Shown piece by piece: positions 1-28,493 of a stretch of DNA of 28,600 nucleotides. Numbering within the stretch: position 1 is the stretch's first letter; each line of letters begins with the position of its first letter. The notes below the pieces were generated by a model, which was not told where the DNA came from, ran no database searches, and saw only the letters and a program-made list of their open reading frames with translations. The stretch is from a virus, in IMG/VR virus record IMGVR_UViG_3300047181_000033, positions 1 to 28,600 of that record; one strand, written 5' to 3'. The position numbers were made by a program, and so were the translations under genes.

Positions 1-37
1 GTGTGAAATATAGTTTTCACGAATCTAGGTAAAAATT

Positions 38-57
38 ACACGGTGTTACAATTATAG
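38..57 (+). promoter_or_regulatory. possible extended -10 promoter with overlapping dyad, upstream of terS
   Basis: TGTTACAAT at 44-52 reads as an extended -10 element (TGn followed by TACAAT, five of six matches to TATAAT). No good -35 box lies 17 bp upstream, as expected if the extended -10 carries the promoter. A short dyad, ACACgGTGT at 38-46, overlaps its upstream edge and could be an operator. The elements are short and could arise by chance in AT-rich DNA, so this is tentative. Confidence 0.28.
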
Positions 58-81
58 CGCAGTGTTAGATATCCTTAAAAA

Positions 82-143
82 AAACTCGGCACAAACTCGG
101 CACAAACTCGGCAAAACTCGGCACAAAGTCGGCAAAACTCGCA
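82..143 (+). repeat. iteron array of six 10-11 bp repeats (candidate terminase-binding pac/cosB site)
   Basis: Six consecutive copies of a unit close to AAACTCGGCAC are present. The CTCGG cores start at 85, 96, 107, 117, 128 (GTCGG) and 138 (CTCGC), giving spacings of 11, 11, 10, 11 and 10 bp. This mean of about 10.6 bp places every copy on the same face of B-DNA. The array ends about 80 bp before the small terminase start. Small terminases bind phased repeats near or inside terS in several phages, so a packaging initiation site is the most likely role. Replication iterons or an operator array are alternatives. Confidence 0.6.
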
Positions 144-222
144 ATTTTACCTCAAAAGTAGTATGTAAAAATTGCAAAAGTTAGGTAAACTTATCATTGT
201 ATTTATTAAAAATAGGAAATCT

Positions 223-660
223 ATGGAAAAAGACAAAAAAGATTTTGGATCGGGAGAATACCCTAATACCGGGCGTTATTACCCGGCAAAAAAGGGGCAA
301 ACTTACTCCTGGGGAAAAAATTGGCGTATATTCTGTACGGAGATTACACAAAGGGACAACTTCAAAGAGTCTCATTTAAAGACCGTAGAAATTCTTTGCG
401 ACCTCCTTGAAGAGTACGAAAAGTTGACTCTTTTTGTAAAGGAAAACGGATATTCTTTCAAAGGCCCGGAAGGCCCTAAACCTTTCCCGGAAGTAAGCAT
501 AAGGAACAAGATTTCACAAAACATAGTTCAATATTGCAAACTACTCGACATTAAACTAAGCAAGGACAAACCTAATGCCTCTGAAGAAGAAGAAAACGAA
601 TGGGATGAAACAAATTTCGTCGCTCCACCAACCATCAGTGCAAACTCTACACTTTGCTAA
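223..660 (+). CDS. terS: terminase small subunit, P27-like (putative)
   Basis: This gene probably encodes the DNA-recognition subunit of the packaging motor. The 145-residue protein has a helical middle in which an acidic helix (TVEILCDLLEEYEKL) is followed by a GYSFKGPEGPKPFPEVS segment and a final helix (NKISQNIVQYCKLLDIKL). This 'helix, glycine-rich strand, proline, helix' arrangement is typical of P27-type small terminases. The ATG at 223 was chosen because AGGAA lies 7 bases upstream. An in-frame TTG at 172 would add 17 residues but has no ribosome site. It sits directly upstream of, and overlaps by 86 bases, an unmistakable large terminase, and it follows the iteron array it may bind. 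Family assignment rests on pattern and position. Confidence 0.72.
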   Translation: MEKDKKDFGSGEYPNTGRYYPAKKGQTYSWGKNWRIFCTEITQRDNFKESHLKTVEILCDLLEEYEKLTLFVKENGYSFKGPEGPKPFPEVSIRNKISQNIVQYCKLLDIKLSKDKPNASEEEENEWDETNFVAPPTISANSTLC

Positions 661-2329
661 TTGTCCAAACGTAAGTGCTGGCCATCAATACTGTCTAGAT
701 ATTTTAACCGGCAAGATCACGGCAAATATTTACATTATGGCCGCTTGCCAGAGATATTTAAACGATATTAAAAAGTGGCAGGAAAATCCCGAAACTAATT
801 ATTATTTTCGTGCTGATATTGCCGAACGATTTTTAGTACTAGTCCAAAAATTCAAACATGCTATCGGTAAATGGGATACGGATTACATTCTTTATGAACC
901 TTGGCAAAAATTTGTTTGGATGAATATTATCGGTTGGTATTCGAGGGAGACAGGCAATAGGAAATATAGAACCTGTCATTTAGAGCTTGGCCGCGGAAAT
1001 GGTAAAAGTGCGATGGCATCACAAGCCGCAATCTATTTCATGCGCTTAGATAATCCACAAGGGAACCATGTATCGTGTGCGGCCACACGTAGGGAGCAAG
1101 CAACAATCGTTTTAAATTCGGCCCGGATAATGGCCGCATCTAATAAAGAATTTCTCAAGCGAACTGGTGTAAAAGTTTTGGCCCATCAGATAGTACATCC
1201 TCCAACCGATTCACATATTAAAGCAGTATCAAGCGAGGCCGGAGGTCTTGACGGAAAATCTGACGTTTTAGTAATTGCCGATGAATTACATGCAATGAAA
1301 AAAAATACGTTTGAAACATTAGATTCGGGAATGTCGAAACGTCGTGATTCATTACTTCTATGTATTACTACAGCGGGATACGATGTTGAAGGTGTTGGAT
1401 ATTCTCAATCATGCTACGCTAAGAAAGTAGCTTTAGGGGAAGTTAATGACGAAACTTTTTTTAGTGCGGTATATTGTATCGATGAGAAAGATGATCCTTT
1501 TGATGAGAAAAATTGGATTAAGGCCAACCCCAATTTTGGTATATCAGTTGACCCTATTAATTTTAGAGCAAAGGCGCTCAAAGCAAGAGAAAATCCACAA
1601 GATCTAGCTAACTTTAAAATTAAACATCTCAATCTTTGGATTTCAGAAGCTAGAGCATTTTTCGATATGAATAAATGGGATGCTTGTTGCAATCCCAATA
1701 TTAGAATAGAAGATTTTGCAAATGAAAAATGTATGGTCGGAATTGATATTGCATCTAAGATCGACTTAACTGCTTTTGGTTTTGTTTTTAAACGCAATAA
1801 TAAATATTATATTTTTTCAAAAGCATATATTCCAGAAGTAACGGCCAGAGAATCTAAAAACTCAATTTATCCAGAATGTATTGGTAAAGGTTTTTTAATA
1901 TCAACAAAAGGCGAAGCAATTAATTATCCTCAACTTGAAAGTGATTTATTAACTTTATCTAGAAAACATCGTTTTGACTCTATATTCTATGATCCATGGA
2001 ACGCAAGTCAATTAGCACAAAATTTAGTTTCTAATCGTTTAAATATGGTTGAGTTTAGAATGACTACCGCAAATTTTTCCGAAACTATGAAATCATTAGA
2101 TGCGGCCATTCGGTCTGGCAATGTCGTCCACAATGGTGATCCATTATTACGCTGGTGTATTGGGAATGTCGTGGCCAAAGAAGATGCAAACGGTAATGTA
2201 TTTCCAAGAAAAAGTCATGAGAAATTAAAGATCGATATTGCAATTGCTATTTTGATGGCGATGGCCGGACATATCCAACAAAAAACCGAAACTAGTGTTT
2301 ATGAAACTAGGGGATTGCTAACGATTTAA
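575..2329 (+). CDS. terL: terminase large subunit (HK97-like, Terminase_1 type)
   Basis: This is the ATPase and nuclease of the packaging motor, which cuts concatemers and pumps DNA through the portal. The ATPase domain shows Walker A GRGNGKS (residues 139-145), Walker B VLVIADE (231-237) and the coupling motif ITTAG (264-268). The RNase H-like nuclease domain shows three acidic positions expected for metal binding: D391 in VGIDIAS, D473 in FYDPWNA and D554 in KIDIAIA. The 584-residue length is normal for the family. ATG 575 has AAGGA eight bases upstream; ATG 605 is a possible later start with a poorer ribosome site. The family-typical segment YCLDILTGKI lies close after either start. The long overlap with terS suggests translational coupling. 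Confidence 0.96.
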   Translation: MPLKKKKTNGMKQISSLHQPSVQTLHFANCPNVSAGHQYCLDILTGKITANIYIMAACQRYLNDIKKWQENPETNYYFRADIAERFLVLVQKFKHAIGKWDTDYILYEPWQKFVWMNIIGWYSRETGNRKYRTCHLELGRGNGKSAMASQAAIYFMRLDNPQGNHVSCAATRREQATIVLNSARIMAASNKEFLKRTGVKVLAHQIVHPPTDSHIKAVSSEAGGLDGKSDVLVIADELHAMKKNTFETLDSGMSKRRDSLLLCITTAGYDVEGVGYSQSCYAKKVALGEVNDETFFSAVYCIDEKDDPFDEKNWIKANPNFGISVDPINFRAKALKARENPQDLANFKIKHLNLWISEARAFFDMNKWDACCNPNIRIEDFANEKCMVGIDIASKIDLTAFGFVFKRNNKYYIFSKAYIPEVTARESKNSIYPECIGKGFLISTKGEAINYPQLESDLLTLSRKHRFDSIFYDPWNASQLAQNLVSNRLNMVEFRMTTANFSETMKSLDAAIRSGNVVHNGDPLLRWCIGNVVAKEDANGNVFPRKSHEKLKIDIAIAILMAMAGHIQQKTETSVYETRGLLTI

Positions 2330-23043: not shown

Positions 23044-26000
23044 ATGTCGCAAACAGTATGGGATACAATTTTACCGGGTTCCACTAGTGGGACGCAATTA
23101 GCAACAATCTTAGATAATTTTAAAGATGCGGTAATTTCTGGCATGAATGGAACGGCCAGACCGTCTGAAATTGATCCAGGGGGAACGTGGGTTGATACTA
23201 CTACGACGACCTGGGTTTTAAATATATGGTCGGGTACGGTAGATATTCCTTTATTCTCGATCAATACCTTAACTGGCTCCGCTTCGATTTCATCGGCCGA
23301 TTCATCGATTACCATATCAAAAATTAGTGCTGATGCCGTTGGCCCATTGTTGAAGTTTCTTAAAGAGAGAATCGCGAATAACGGCCAAACCGTTCCTGGC
23401 GATTCGGTTGGCGATATCGACTTTTATGGAACTACTGACGCAGGATTAGAAGAAAAATTAGCATCAGTCATGGTTGTTGCTACTGAATCTACTACGGCCA
23501 TCGCCCAGGGTAGTTACATGGCATTTAATACGACAAAAACCGGAGAGACAGCACTTGAAGAAAGGATGAGGATAACCGGAAATGGTGGAGTAGTCATTGG
23601 AGCAACATCAACTACCGAAGATTTTGAGGTAGCAGGAAGCGCCAAGTTTGATTCACTTACAGTTACAACCGCAACAACTTTTGTTACTGCGACCGCTACG
23701 ACCGGAAATTTTGTTAATCTGAATGCGACTACTGAAAACGTAACGACCTCTAACATTGTAACGGCCAATGCGACTACTGCGAATATTGTAACTGAAAATG
23801 TTACGACTTCCCACGTAGTAACTGCGAATGCTACAACCGCTAATATCGTAACTGAAAACGTCACAACATCGAATATAGTAACTGCTAATGCTACGACCGC
23901 TAACATCGTTACGGCCGACATTACGACCGCTTTAATTGATACCGCTACAATGATTACCGCTAATGCGACTACTGCGAATATTGTTGATTTAATCGTTTCC
24001 GGGGCCAGTACATTAGCAAGTTTAGTTGTGACAGCTAGTTCAAGCTTAGCAAACGCCACAATTCAATCGCCGGTCAGATTAGATGCTAAGAAAGATACAA
24101 AAGCTAATTTAGATACATACGCTTCTACTGGGATTAATGGCGAATTACTTTATGCTACTGATGAGAAAAAATATTACGGTATTAAAGATGGTGCTACTGA
24201 TTCGCTTGGAGGCGGAGGCGCTGGCGATGCTTCAACAATTGATCTTACCAATCCGAATGATCTAACCGATGCCACGGTAACTAATATTACTCGACAAGGT
24301 AACAATGCCGCTTTTGATGGCGGTGGAGCAATTACTTTAAATAGTTTAAGTATTTCAGCTACAGCGGCCGATCTTCTTTTTAATGAGAAGGTAATTAAAT
24401 ATAAACCAGCGGCCAATGGAGTTAATGATTACTTTGGTTTTGTTAAAGATATTCCTAAGAGTTGCCGAGGAAATTTAATTGGAATTAGCTTCTGGTATAA
24501 GACAGATGCGACGACATTAAATAATGATTTCCGCCATTGTATAAAAATAACTGACGGTGCTTTAGCTGGTACTATTCAATACGATAGTTTGCCCGCATCT
24601 AGTTCTAAAGCTAATAAATGGGGAACTACTTTTCAAGTACCAAGCGATTGCACTCAAATTGAATTTGGTATTCAGAATACCGATACAACTACGACATTAG
24701 AATTTTATTGGGATCAAATATTATTAGCGAGTGATCCAGTAGTAAGTACTAATGTTGCTAATATTACTGCTTGGACTTCGTACACACCTACTGGATCATG
24801 GTCAACTAATACAACATATACTGGTAAGTGGCGTAGAGTTGGCGAAAATATGGAGGTACAAGTTAAAGTCGCTACTTCTGGTGCTCCAACGGCGGCGGCG
24901 TTAACTGTTAATTTACCTACTGGATATTCTATTGATTCAACTAAATATGTAGAGGATGGGAATTCTGCAAAATTTGGATGGGGTACAATTAACGATAATA
25001 CTGCTACGGTTTTTACTAGTATTTATGCAGGCCCTAATAATTCTACTTCGGTAGCTATTTATAATACCAAAGCAGATCAAACTTATACATATTGGGGATC
25101 TGTTTCTGCAACAACACCGATGACATGGGCCGCAAGTGATTATTTAGCAATTAATTTCTCAGTGCCAATTCAAGGTTGGTCTGCCAATGATCAATTTATA
25201 CTAACACCTGCGACTAGCGGCATGGAAACATGGAGAATTAGTTCAGCACAAAATGCAATGACTGACATAGCGGCCTCTGTTCAATTTCCTGCGGCCCCTA
25301 CTGTTTATAAAAATGGTTCAGCTTCATCACAAACAGAATTTGCTTTAACTACGAATATAATTAGACATGATCGAAGTACCGATCCTTCTAAATTTATTGC
25401 AAATGTACCATGTAAAATAACAGTTTCAGCGGTAGTCGGAGAGACAGGAAGCGCCAACAATATTTTAAATATTACTGATTCTAGTTCGCTTGTGACTACT
25501 GGAAATAACGCTACTAGTGGTTATCCAATGACTGTTACTACCGAATTACATTTAAAGAAAGATGATTATTTTACCCTGGGTGTAACATTAGGAAGTATAG
25601 CGAGCACTGCCACAGTAATGTATATGAATATTCAAGCGGTGGCCGCTAGTAGTGCTTTTCTTGCGGCAATACCGACGGAGAGGGTAGCATTTTTAAAAGA
25701 TATACAAACTAATGGAACTAATGGCGGAGGATCTTCGGCCGGTTGGCAAACCAGAGTATTAAATACTATTCAGGGAGATACTGAAATTGTTGCTTTAAGC
25801 TCTAATCAATTTACTTTATGGTCTGGAATATATGATCTAGATGCAATAGCTCCGGCCAATGCGGTAAATAGACATAAAATAAAATTACGAAATATTTCTG
25901 ATTCTACTGATGATATAATTGGATCAAGTGAATATGCTTCTGGTATTTCAAGATCTAGATTAGTTGGACGTATCATTTTAATTAGTCCTAAAATTTTTGA

Positions 26001-26838: not shown

Positions 26839-27030
26839 ATGGCACAACATGACTGCAATAAAGAACGAGAATTAGATATACTCTTAAAAAGAACTGAAAA
26901 CATAGAGAATAAAGTTTTAGAGTTGTTAGAATTCAAGTGGAAAATTGTTGCAGTTGTGTCCACCATTAGCATAATTACAAGCGCAGGATTTACGATTGTT
27001 TTACAAGTTTGGGATAAAATTAAATCCTAA
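26839..27030 (+). CDS. XhlA-like holin-accessory membrane protein
   Basis: The 63-residue product has an N-terminal charged coiled coil (RELDILLKRTENIENKVLEL) and a single C-terminal membrane segment (IVAVVSTISIITSAGFTIVL), then WDKIKS. This 'coiled coil plus TM' layout is that of hemolysin XhlA-type proteins, which assist holin-mediated lysis. AAAGG lies seven bases before the ATG. It follows the fibre genes, a common site for lysis functions. No holin partner or endolysin is visible nearby, so it may be a single small membrane protein of other purpose. It overlaps the opposing zinc-ribbon gene by four bases. Confidence 0.68.
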   Translation: MAQHDCNKERELDILLKRTENIENKVLELLEFKWKIVAVVSTISIITSAGFTIVLQVWDKIKS

Positions 27031-27221
27031 TCATCGTCACGGCCCATATTCTCTTCACGACATTGTTTGCATAAATGGTAATTGTCATTTTCTGAACGAT
27101 AAAAAACCTTTCCACATTTTAGACAAGTTTTCTTAACATTTTTCTTATTGAAAGATGATTGCTCATGAATGCTTATTTGAGTGATGTCTATGTAATTCTT
27201 TTTTAAATTTTTCCTTGGCAT
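27027..27221 (-). CDS. small zinc-ribbon protein
   Basis: The 64-residue product has two CxxC pairs (CLKCGK and CKQC) separated by about 15 residues, VFYRSENDNYHL lying between them. This is the layout of a treble-clef or zinc-ribbon metal site. The N-terminal part is basic and the end acidic (MGRDDD). Such small phage proteins can bind nucleic acid or host proteins; the role is unknown. The start has no clear Shine-Dalgarno sequence (AAGGGA is about 20 bases away). It faces the plus-strand late operon tail to tail. Confidence 0.68.
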   Translation of the reverse strand: MPRKNLKKNYIDITQISIHEQSSFNKKNVKKTCLKCGKVFYRSENDNYHLCKQCREENMGRDDD

Positions 27222-27329: not shown

Positions 27330-28493
27330 TTAACTGTAGACCAATTTTTTGATTACCATAACGCTTAAGAATGAATCTACTGGCATTTTATCGGGGAAAT
27401 TAAAGCAAGAATTAATGAAAAGACAGGCAGAAAAACTCATGAAAAAGGCATCTTTATGGCCAATAAAAATCAATTCTGCCATTGCTAGAACTAGCAATAC
27501 TGCGCCAACTTTCCCGCCCTCAATGGCCCATTGAAAGAATGTTGAGTGAAGCCACATAACGACTTGCTTAGTTTTTAAATATGTTTCTTCTTTTTCGACA
27601 ATCTGGATTGCTGGCATTGCGTAATAAAAAGTACCATTGCCGATACCGAACCATTTATGAGCATATTTTTGGTAAACCGATTTCCAGGCAAATTTATAAA
27701 TAATGTCTCGATAACTTAAAGAGAAAAAAGGGTGCATTTTTCGCCCAAATAATACTAGCGGGGTGCAATTGCACATTTTGCTTTTCGACCAATTCCACCA
27801 TAAGGGGAGAGTTAATAGGACTATGCCAGTTACGATAAAGGGAATGATTGGATTATGATAAAGACCATAGATAAAACTCCCTGCGGAAATGCCAATTATG
27901 CCAGCACTTCCCATACTTCTAATTACCGCTAAAAATCCAATACACCAACCAATCAGACCTAAATGGTAAGGTAATAAAGATCCAAGTGATGCCATAGCAA
28001 TTAATGACATTAAAGTGGAGTTAACCGAGCTATTAGCGCCATATCCCCAACATCTTACATCTTGGTTTAATCTCTCACATTTAACCTTGTAAGGGATGAA
28101 TGTCCAAATTGCTCCGATAATCGAAACAATTGGCATGATATCAAATAACGGCCTTAACATTTTAGTGGGGAAAAATAAAAACATTAGGACCAAAACTAAA
28201 GTGTCGATAAATTGGGTGGAAACTGCATTTAAAAACAGAAAATTTCTCTTTTTTTCTTTCGAGCAAAAATGGTTTAATCGTGGCCAGGTGGACATATAGC
28301 AGGATGATGCCAGGGCATAGAAAACCAGGAAGGAACCTAATGGCAATACCTGAAAGACATACCAAGATAGTAAGGCAATCGATCCTAGATTAAACGCTAA
28401 TTGCTTGGGGTATTTATAATCGGTGTCAGCATTCCACGAACACCAGGCAACAAATACGATTAGTAGTAAAAACATAACTAATAATTCGATCAT
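27330..28493 (-). CDS. polytopic membrane protein, O-antigen ligase / Wzy-like (Wzy_C type)
   Basis: The 387-residue protein has about ten hydrophobic segments across its length. Three features fit the Wzy_C/O-antigen ligase family: IRSMGSAGIIGISAGSF (191-207), which resembles the 'SRgxxlal' helix; GIGNGTF (283-289), followed by a periplasmic-type loop and WLHSTFFQWAIEGGKVGAVL (314-333), in place of the usual 'HNxxLqxlxExGxxG'; and a final NSCFNFPDKMPVDS segment. Such enzymes polymerise or transfer lipid-linked sugars. On a phage this suggests host surface modification. AGGAAA lies seven bases before the ATG. The histidine-serine instead of histidine-asparagine is atypical, and function is inferred. 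Confidence 0.62.
   Translation of the reverse strand: MIELLVMFLLLIVFVAWCSWNADTDYKYPKQLAFNLGSIALLSWYVFQVLPLGSFLVFYALASSCYMSTWPRLNHFCSKEKKRNFLFLNAVSTQFIDTLVLVLMFLFFPTKMLRPLFDIMPIVSIIGAIWTFIPYKVKCERLNQDVRCWGYGANSSVNSTLMSLIAMASLGSLLPYHLGLIGWCIGFLAVIRSMGSAGIIGISAGSFIYGLYHNPIIPFIVTGIVLLTLPLWWNWSKSKMCNCTPLVLFGRKMHPFFSLSYRDIIYKFAWKSVYQKYAHKWFGIGNGTFYYAMPAIQIVEKEETYLKTKQVVMWLHSTFFQWAIEGGKVGAVLLVLAMAELIFIGHKDAFFMSFSACLFINSCFNFPDKMPVDSFLSVMVIKKLVYS

Follow-up and report, generated by a model that had tools for sequence, protein, structure and literature searches.

A helically phased direct-repeat array beside the predicted cos end of an HK97-type phage as a putative accessory packaging element

In phage HK97 the small terminase subunit, TerS, recognises a single 15-bp site at +15 to +29 that contains an A/T tract and in which the C:G pair at 21 is critical, as established by EMSA and cryoEM (PMC11331095). 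VarioGold carries a 10-nt 3' cohesive end that was determined from virion reads (PMC9658991). The two phages share a 3'-overhang cos with a terminal motif at +1, flanked by HNH on one side and by terS and terL on the other. In lambda, cosB (R3, R2, R1 and the IHF site I1) places several TerS sites together with bent DNA no more than about 200 bp from the cut, before terS (PMC4856287, PMC4669245), and the pac site of SPP1 (pacL) contains intrinsically bent DNA that is thought to wrap around the TerS oligomer (PMC4856287). In the Lactococcus 936-group phages, the cos region has been reported to contain direct repeats as well as putative terminase sites (PMC6105707).

We compared these systems with a viral sequence of 28,600 nucleotides (IMG/VR virus record IMGVR_UViG_3300047181_000033, positions 1 to 28,600; hereafter the window), which opens 222 bp 5' of terS. 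The terS gene (223..660, plus strand) encodes a 145-residue protein of the Terminase_4 family (PF05119), to which the VarioGold TerS also belongs. A search of 50,697 phage records gave no match to this protein, and a PDB sequence search returned chance matches only. Against an AF2 model (pLDDT 71), HK97 TerS ranks first with Z scores of 9.2 and 9.1, the next protein reaching 7.0; the quality of the model is moderate, the Foldseek E-value is not significant and helical proteins can reach high Z scores by chance, and it is at the level of prediction that an HK97-like fold is supported. The overlapping terL gene (575..2329, plus strand), with TerL_ATPase and TerL_nuclease domains, matches PF03354, PF20441 and PHROG 9 and thereby belongs to the HK97-type large terminases. 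It is followed by genes for a ClpP-like protease, an HK97-fold capsid protein, the portal and the tail; the record lacks the early region. Tandem 30/60-bp repeats occur at 23731-23909 within a gene for a 1022-residue tail-fibre-like protein, and two minus-strand frames encode a small CxxC...CxxC zinc-ribbon-like protein (27027-27221) and, downstream of the tail genes, a membrane protein that weakly matches Wzy_C, the O-antigen ligase domain (27330-28493), possibly a lysogenic-conversion gene or host flank. Scans of GTDB genomes for the host gave no match in one case and a distant Paenibacillus TerL only in another.

The position of the cut can be read from related metagenomic contigs, which start at one homologous base with the motif (G/C)YCRAATTTT. 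This motif forms the left end of L002 (GTCGGACTTA), L023 (GGCGAAGTTT), L029 (GCCGAATTTT), L039 (GTCGGATTTA), L055 (ATCGAATTTC), L058 (CCCAAATTTT), L060 (CTTGAATTTT), L095 and L114 (both GCCAAATTTT), L107 (GTCAAATTTT) and L112 (GTCAAACTTT), and the left ends of HK97 (GTTTGAATTT) and VarioGold (CCCAAATTTTTACG) lie in the same register. It stands exactly at the start in 11 of the 30 family contigs that end upstream of terL, against 0.1 expected; the pattern behind this count was broadened after later contigs had been seen, so that its significance is only indicative and the independent anchors are HK97 and VarioGold. A contig starting at the first base past the overhang would be what blunt-ending of a 3'-overhang end leaves. 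In six contigs that span the junction (L106, L109, L110, L111, L117 and L118) the motif is internal, and the order of HNH gene, cut and terS in them is that of HK97. The two examined in detail, L117 and L111, contain in succession the HNH gene, a GGGGGTGCAAA-GTCTG-like block, 10 nt, the cut, the terminal motif and terS. A single base separates the 3' end of VarioGold (CGATCGGTTC) from the 10 nt preceding the cut in L118 (CGATCGGTTA). No usable right cos end was obtained from the right ends of G001, G003, G004 and G021.

The left end of L002, the only close relative, is +1; aligned to this contig, the window starts at +10 and lacks bases +1 to +9. Taken together, the contig ends, the spanning contigs, HK97 and VarioGold therefore place window base 1 at about +10 and the cut about 9 bp to its left, from which it follows that the repeat array described below would occupy +91 to +150 and the terS ATG +232. 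These alignments support a location of the array inside an HK97-type cos region, and VarioGold and the spanning contigs together suggest a 10-nt 3' overhang for the window phage. The first-pass annotation had proposed a packaging site of either the pac or the cos kind; the array does appear to lie within the cos region, but pac packaging is disfavoured, since the contigs of the relatives end at one exact base.

The left-end leader (1..222, plus strand), delimited by the alignment to L002 and by the terminal motif common to contig starts, HK97 and VarioGold, would measure about 231 bp from the cut and contains a six-unit array, whereas the leaders of HK97 (49 bp) and VarioGold (88 bp) have no repeats. 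The array (82..144, plus strand) is composed of direct repeats of the form AAA[C/G]TCG.. with the consensus AAACTCGGCA(C), starting at 82, 93, 104, 114, 125 and 135. The six units and their spacings of 11, 11, 10, 11 and 10 bp are as first annotated, but the CTCGG core ascribed to all of them is intact in units 1-4 only, which are perfect copies of ACTCGGCA; units 5 (AGTCGGCA) and 6 (ACTCGCAA) are degenerate. The proposal that the repeats lie on one face of the helix is borne out by a phase coherence of 0.98 at 10.5 bp, compared with 0.37 at 12 bp, and the distance given between array and small terminase gene is likewise correct, the array ending at about 141-144 and the ATG following some 80 bp further on, at 223. 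The longest chain of 8-mers with at most one mismatch and 10/11-bp steps has 6 members in the array, against 2 across the remaining window sequence, and the same measure yielded at most 3 units in 40 Markov-simulated 28.6-kb sequences, confirming that the phased array is beyond chance. Outside the array no exact ACTCGGCA occurs in the window, and imperfect matches elsewhere in these 28.6 kb, from which the early region is missing, are at chance level.

An RNA reading of the array region found no footing: the region has no Rfam match and an unremarkable predicted RNA fold (z -0.85). Replication-origin iterons may be a further reading, although the window, a record without the early region, shows no sign of an initiator gene. 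Modelled curvature, computed with assumed wedge parameters, has its maximum for the window at the array region (about 91-170) and depends on phase. As a decisive sign of packaging it was dropped after controls, in which the 936 arrays did not reliably peak at their repeats and one relative peaked in coding DNA; we give the peak little weight because curvature is not a general property of phased arrays.

To assess conservation, we collected 86 distinct terL-upstream regions from three TerL alignment scans. Arrays of at least 3 copies at 10/11-bp spacing were present only in the window and in L002, an IMG/VR contig whose TerS and TerL are each 87% identical to those of the window. Family members with the same cos motif have leaders of roughly 50-130 bp without an array, that of the window being about 100 bp longer. 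The expectation that close relatives with the same terminase would carry the array thus holds for L002, the only close relative, but fails at about 55-65% TerL identity or less. In L002 the units lie at 91, 102, 112 and 123, in the same phase as in the window and with the mixed 11- and 10-bp spacings kept, and whole units have been gained or lost between the two phages (6 versus 4). Further IMG/VR matches to the array sequence are not relatives: one is a chance match, and the others are repeats of period 12 or of other unrelated kinds, for the most part in coding DNA (SAV- or NSA-like). In the TerL genes of several relatives, a long insertion directly follows the RGNGK motif; that of L013 (2107-4788) resembles an intein, and in L033-L037 and L040 the matches to TerL are broken up within longer frames. 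In the terminal contig L039/L074 (1-191), terL directly follows the leader and no terS is recognisable beside cos.

The closest parallel to the array is provided by the 936 group, although the phage itself is an analogue and not a member: the 936 type combines AATCT repeats with a PF07141 TerS, the window the unit AAACTCGGCA with a PF05119 TerS. In six of these phages (L186, L188-L192), 3-11 copies of AATCT recur every 10 bp between the left cos end and terS, at about +47 to +147. They lie at 51, 61, 71, 81, 91 and 100 in sk1, FB4 has eleven copies in exact 10-bp steps, CB14 has five and jm3 three, and the arrays of phi7 and PhiLj are gapped but in phase or nearly so. This helical phasing was measured here, and we found no mention of it in the passages of PMC6105707 consulted. 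Here, as in the window and L002, phased direct repeats separate the left cos end from terS; their copy number varies and their phase is constant, and the TerL of sk1 is homologous to that of the window (22% identity, E 5e-18). The two systems differ in the repeat sequence, in the TerS family, in the 11-nt cos of the 936 phages (CACAAAGGACT) and in the position of the array, which is nearer the cut in the 936 group. Convergence on a geometry is the likeliest explanation of the two arrays. Lambda cosB has several TerS sites and bent DNA close to the cut, as the leader may also have, but differs in its 5' overhang, its winged-HTH TerS and its three R sites in mixed orientation in place of a tandem phased array. 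HNH is not known to be part of the lambda cosB system. SPP1 is a headful pac phage, in contrast to the fixed cos end of the window phage's relatives.

Where TerS first contacts the DNA is a separate question. The positional equivalent of the HK97 minimal site (+15 to +29) falls at about 6..20 on the plus strand (AAATATAGTTTTCAC), with a T-tract at +23 to +26; a T-rich element near +23, which in the window lies at 13-18, recurs in most family left ends. By analogy with the single 15-bp site of HK97, and in view of this T-rich element, the primary TerS contact is probably this segment and not the array. The role first assigned to the array, that of the TerS site defining the cut, is accordingly not upheld: TerS of HK97 binds at +15 to +29, and relatives with the same terminase type and cos have no array. 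Nor does the array make the cut predictable, as had been proposed; the terminal motif does so instead.

Conservation between window and L002 extends beyond the array to a block at 27..50 (plus strand, AGGTAAAAATTACACGGTGTTACA) and to the final 43 bp in front of the ATG (180..222, plus strand, TTAGGTAAACTT..ATTGTATTTATTAAAAATAGGAAATCT), which are nearly unchanged; the part of the leader directly preceding the array has diverged. The block at 27..50 is near-identical in L002, the next 30 bp diverge, and its core has no match in any other viral contig. A second family of AGGTAAAAATTRC-like repeats, at 141-152 (minus strand) and at 163-175, 183-192 and 27-39 (plus strand), brackets the array and is partly kept in L002; its significance is modest.

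We tentatively regard the array as a lineage-specific accessory element of cosB-like character beside cos, a putative assignment to which we give somewhat less than an even chance. In this model, the terminase of a 3'-overhang, HK97-type phage would cut some 9 bp ahead of window base 1 and TerS would first contact about +15 to +29, as in HK97. The six copies facing one side of the helix would allow a TerS ring or multimer, or a DNA-bending partner, to bind or wrap the DNA beside cos, and the bound array would then help the terminase to load and aim the motor toward terS. We infer both the packaging role and the contact of TerS with the array, where TerS may act at an accessory site. Consistent with such a role, L002 drops whole units yet keeps phase, and the 936 phages share place and geometry. 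Against it stand the restriction of the array to 2 of the 86 regions, the same-motif relatives that lack it, the sufficiency of a single 15-bp site for HK97 TerS, and the fact that the 936 phages use a different TerS family (PF07141) and that the role of their own repeats is itself only putative.

Position alone cannot separate packaging from transcription, because the leader must also hold any promoter of the structural operon. A phage or host regulator might bind the phased copies as an operator and control a promoter in 145-222 for terS and the structural operon, which we consider unlikely, though it is the foremost alternative. The additional leader length, ending in the highly conserved segment before the ATG, and the second repeat family around the array would fit this arrangement, the segment at 180..222 being a possible promoter and ribosome-binding region, and with the gene at 27330-28493 on the minus strand, upstream read-through may be lacking. 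However, no sigma-70-like promoter is recognisable in the terS leader, though the promoters of the host may follow another consensus; the repeat motif is confined to the array within the 28.6 kb, a record without the early region; and at the corresponding position beside cos, the 936 phages carry an array of unrelated sequence. Neutral slippage, in which a short unit expanded without function in a tolerant leader, would account for the gain or loss of whole units (6 versus 4 copies) and for the rarity of the array in the family, but it is improbable: both phages mix 11- and 10-bp spacings with a mean near 10.5 bp where plain slippage would favour one fixed period, and the units are kept while the neighbouring leader diverges. 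Least probable of all is that TerS recognises the DNA solely or mainly through the array, which would thereby set the cut, as the location of the array between cos and terS, like that of lambda cosB with its three TerS sites and bend (PMC4856287, PMC4669245), might suggest: both window and L002 keep the element in the +15 to +29 position, TerS of the HK97 fold binds one 15-bp site, and in relatives that lack an array the cut falls at the same motif.

A broader proposal, which we hold to be less likely still than the operator, is that phased arrays beside cos arose independently in two unrelated lineages, this one and the Lactococcus 936 group, and represent a cosB architecture of their own. 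Besides the single-site mode of HK97, an HK97-fold TerS ring would there wrap the DNA, or dock on it, along one face for five turns. The array itself is a sequence-new case of a cos-proximal phased repeat geometry already represented by the 936 group. In addition, the terminal motif could be used to call the cos ends of the HK97-type group from metagenomic contigs without virion reads. The array bears on the way in which TerS recognises cos or pac DNA, whether by threading, for which HK97 provides the single-site example, or by wrapping, and the window offers a compact test fragment for the reading mode. Sequence-unrelated phased arrays at corresponding positions in two lineages would speak for a wrapping mode beside threading.
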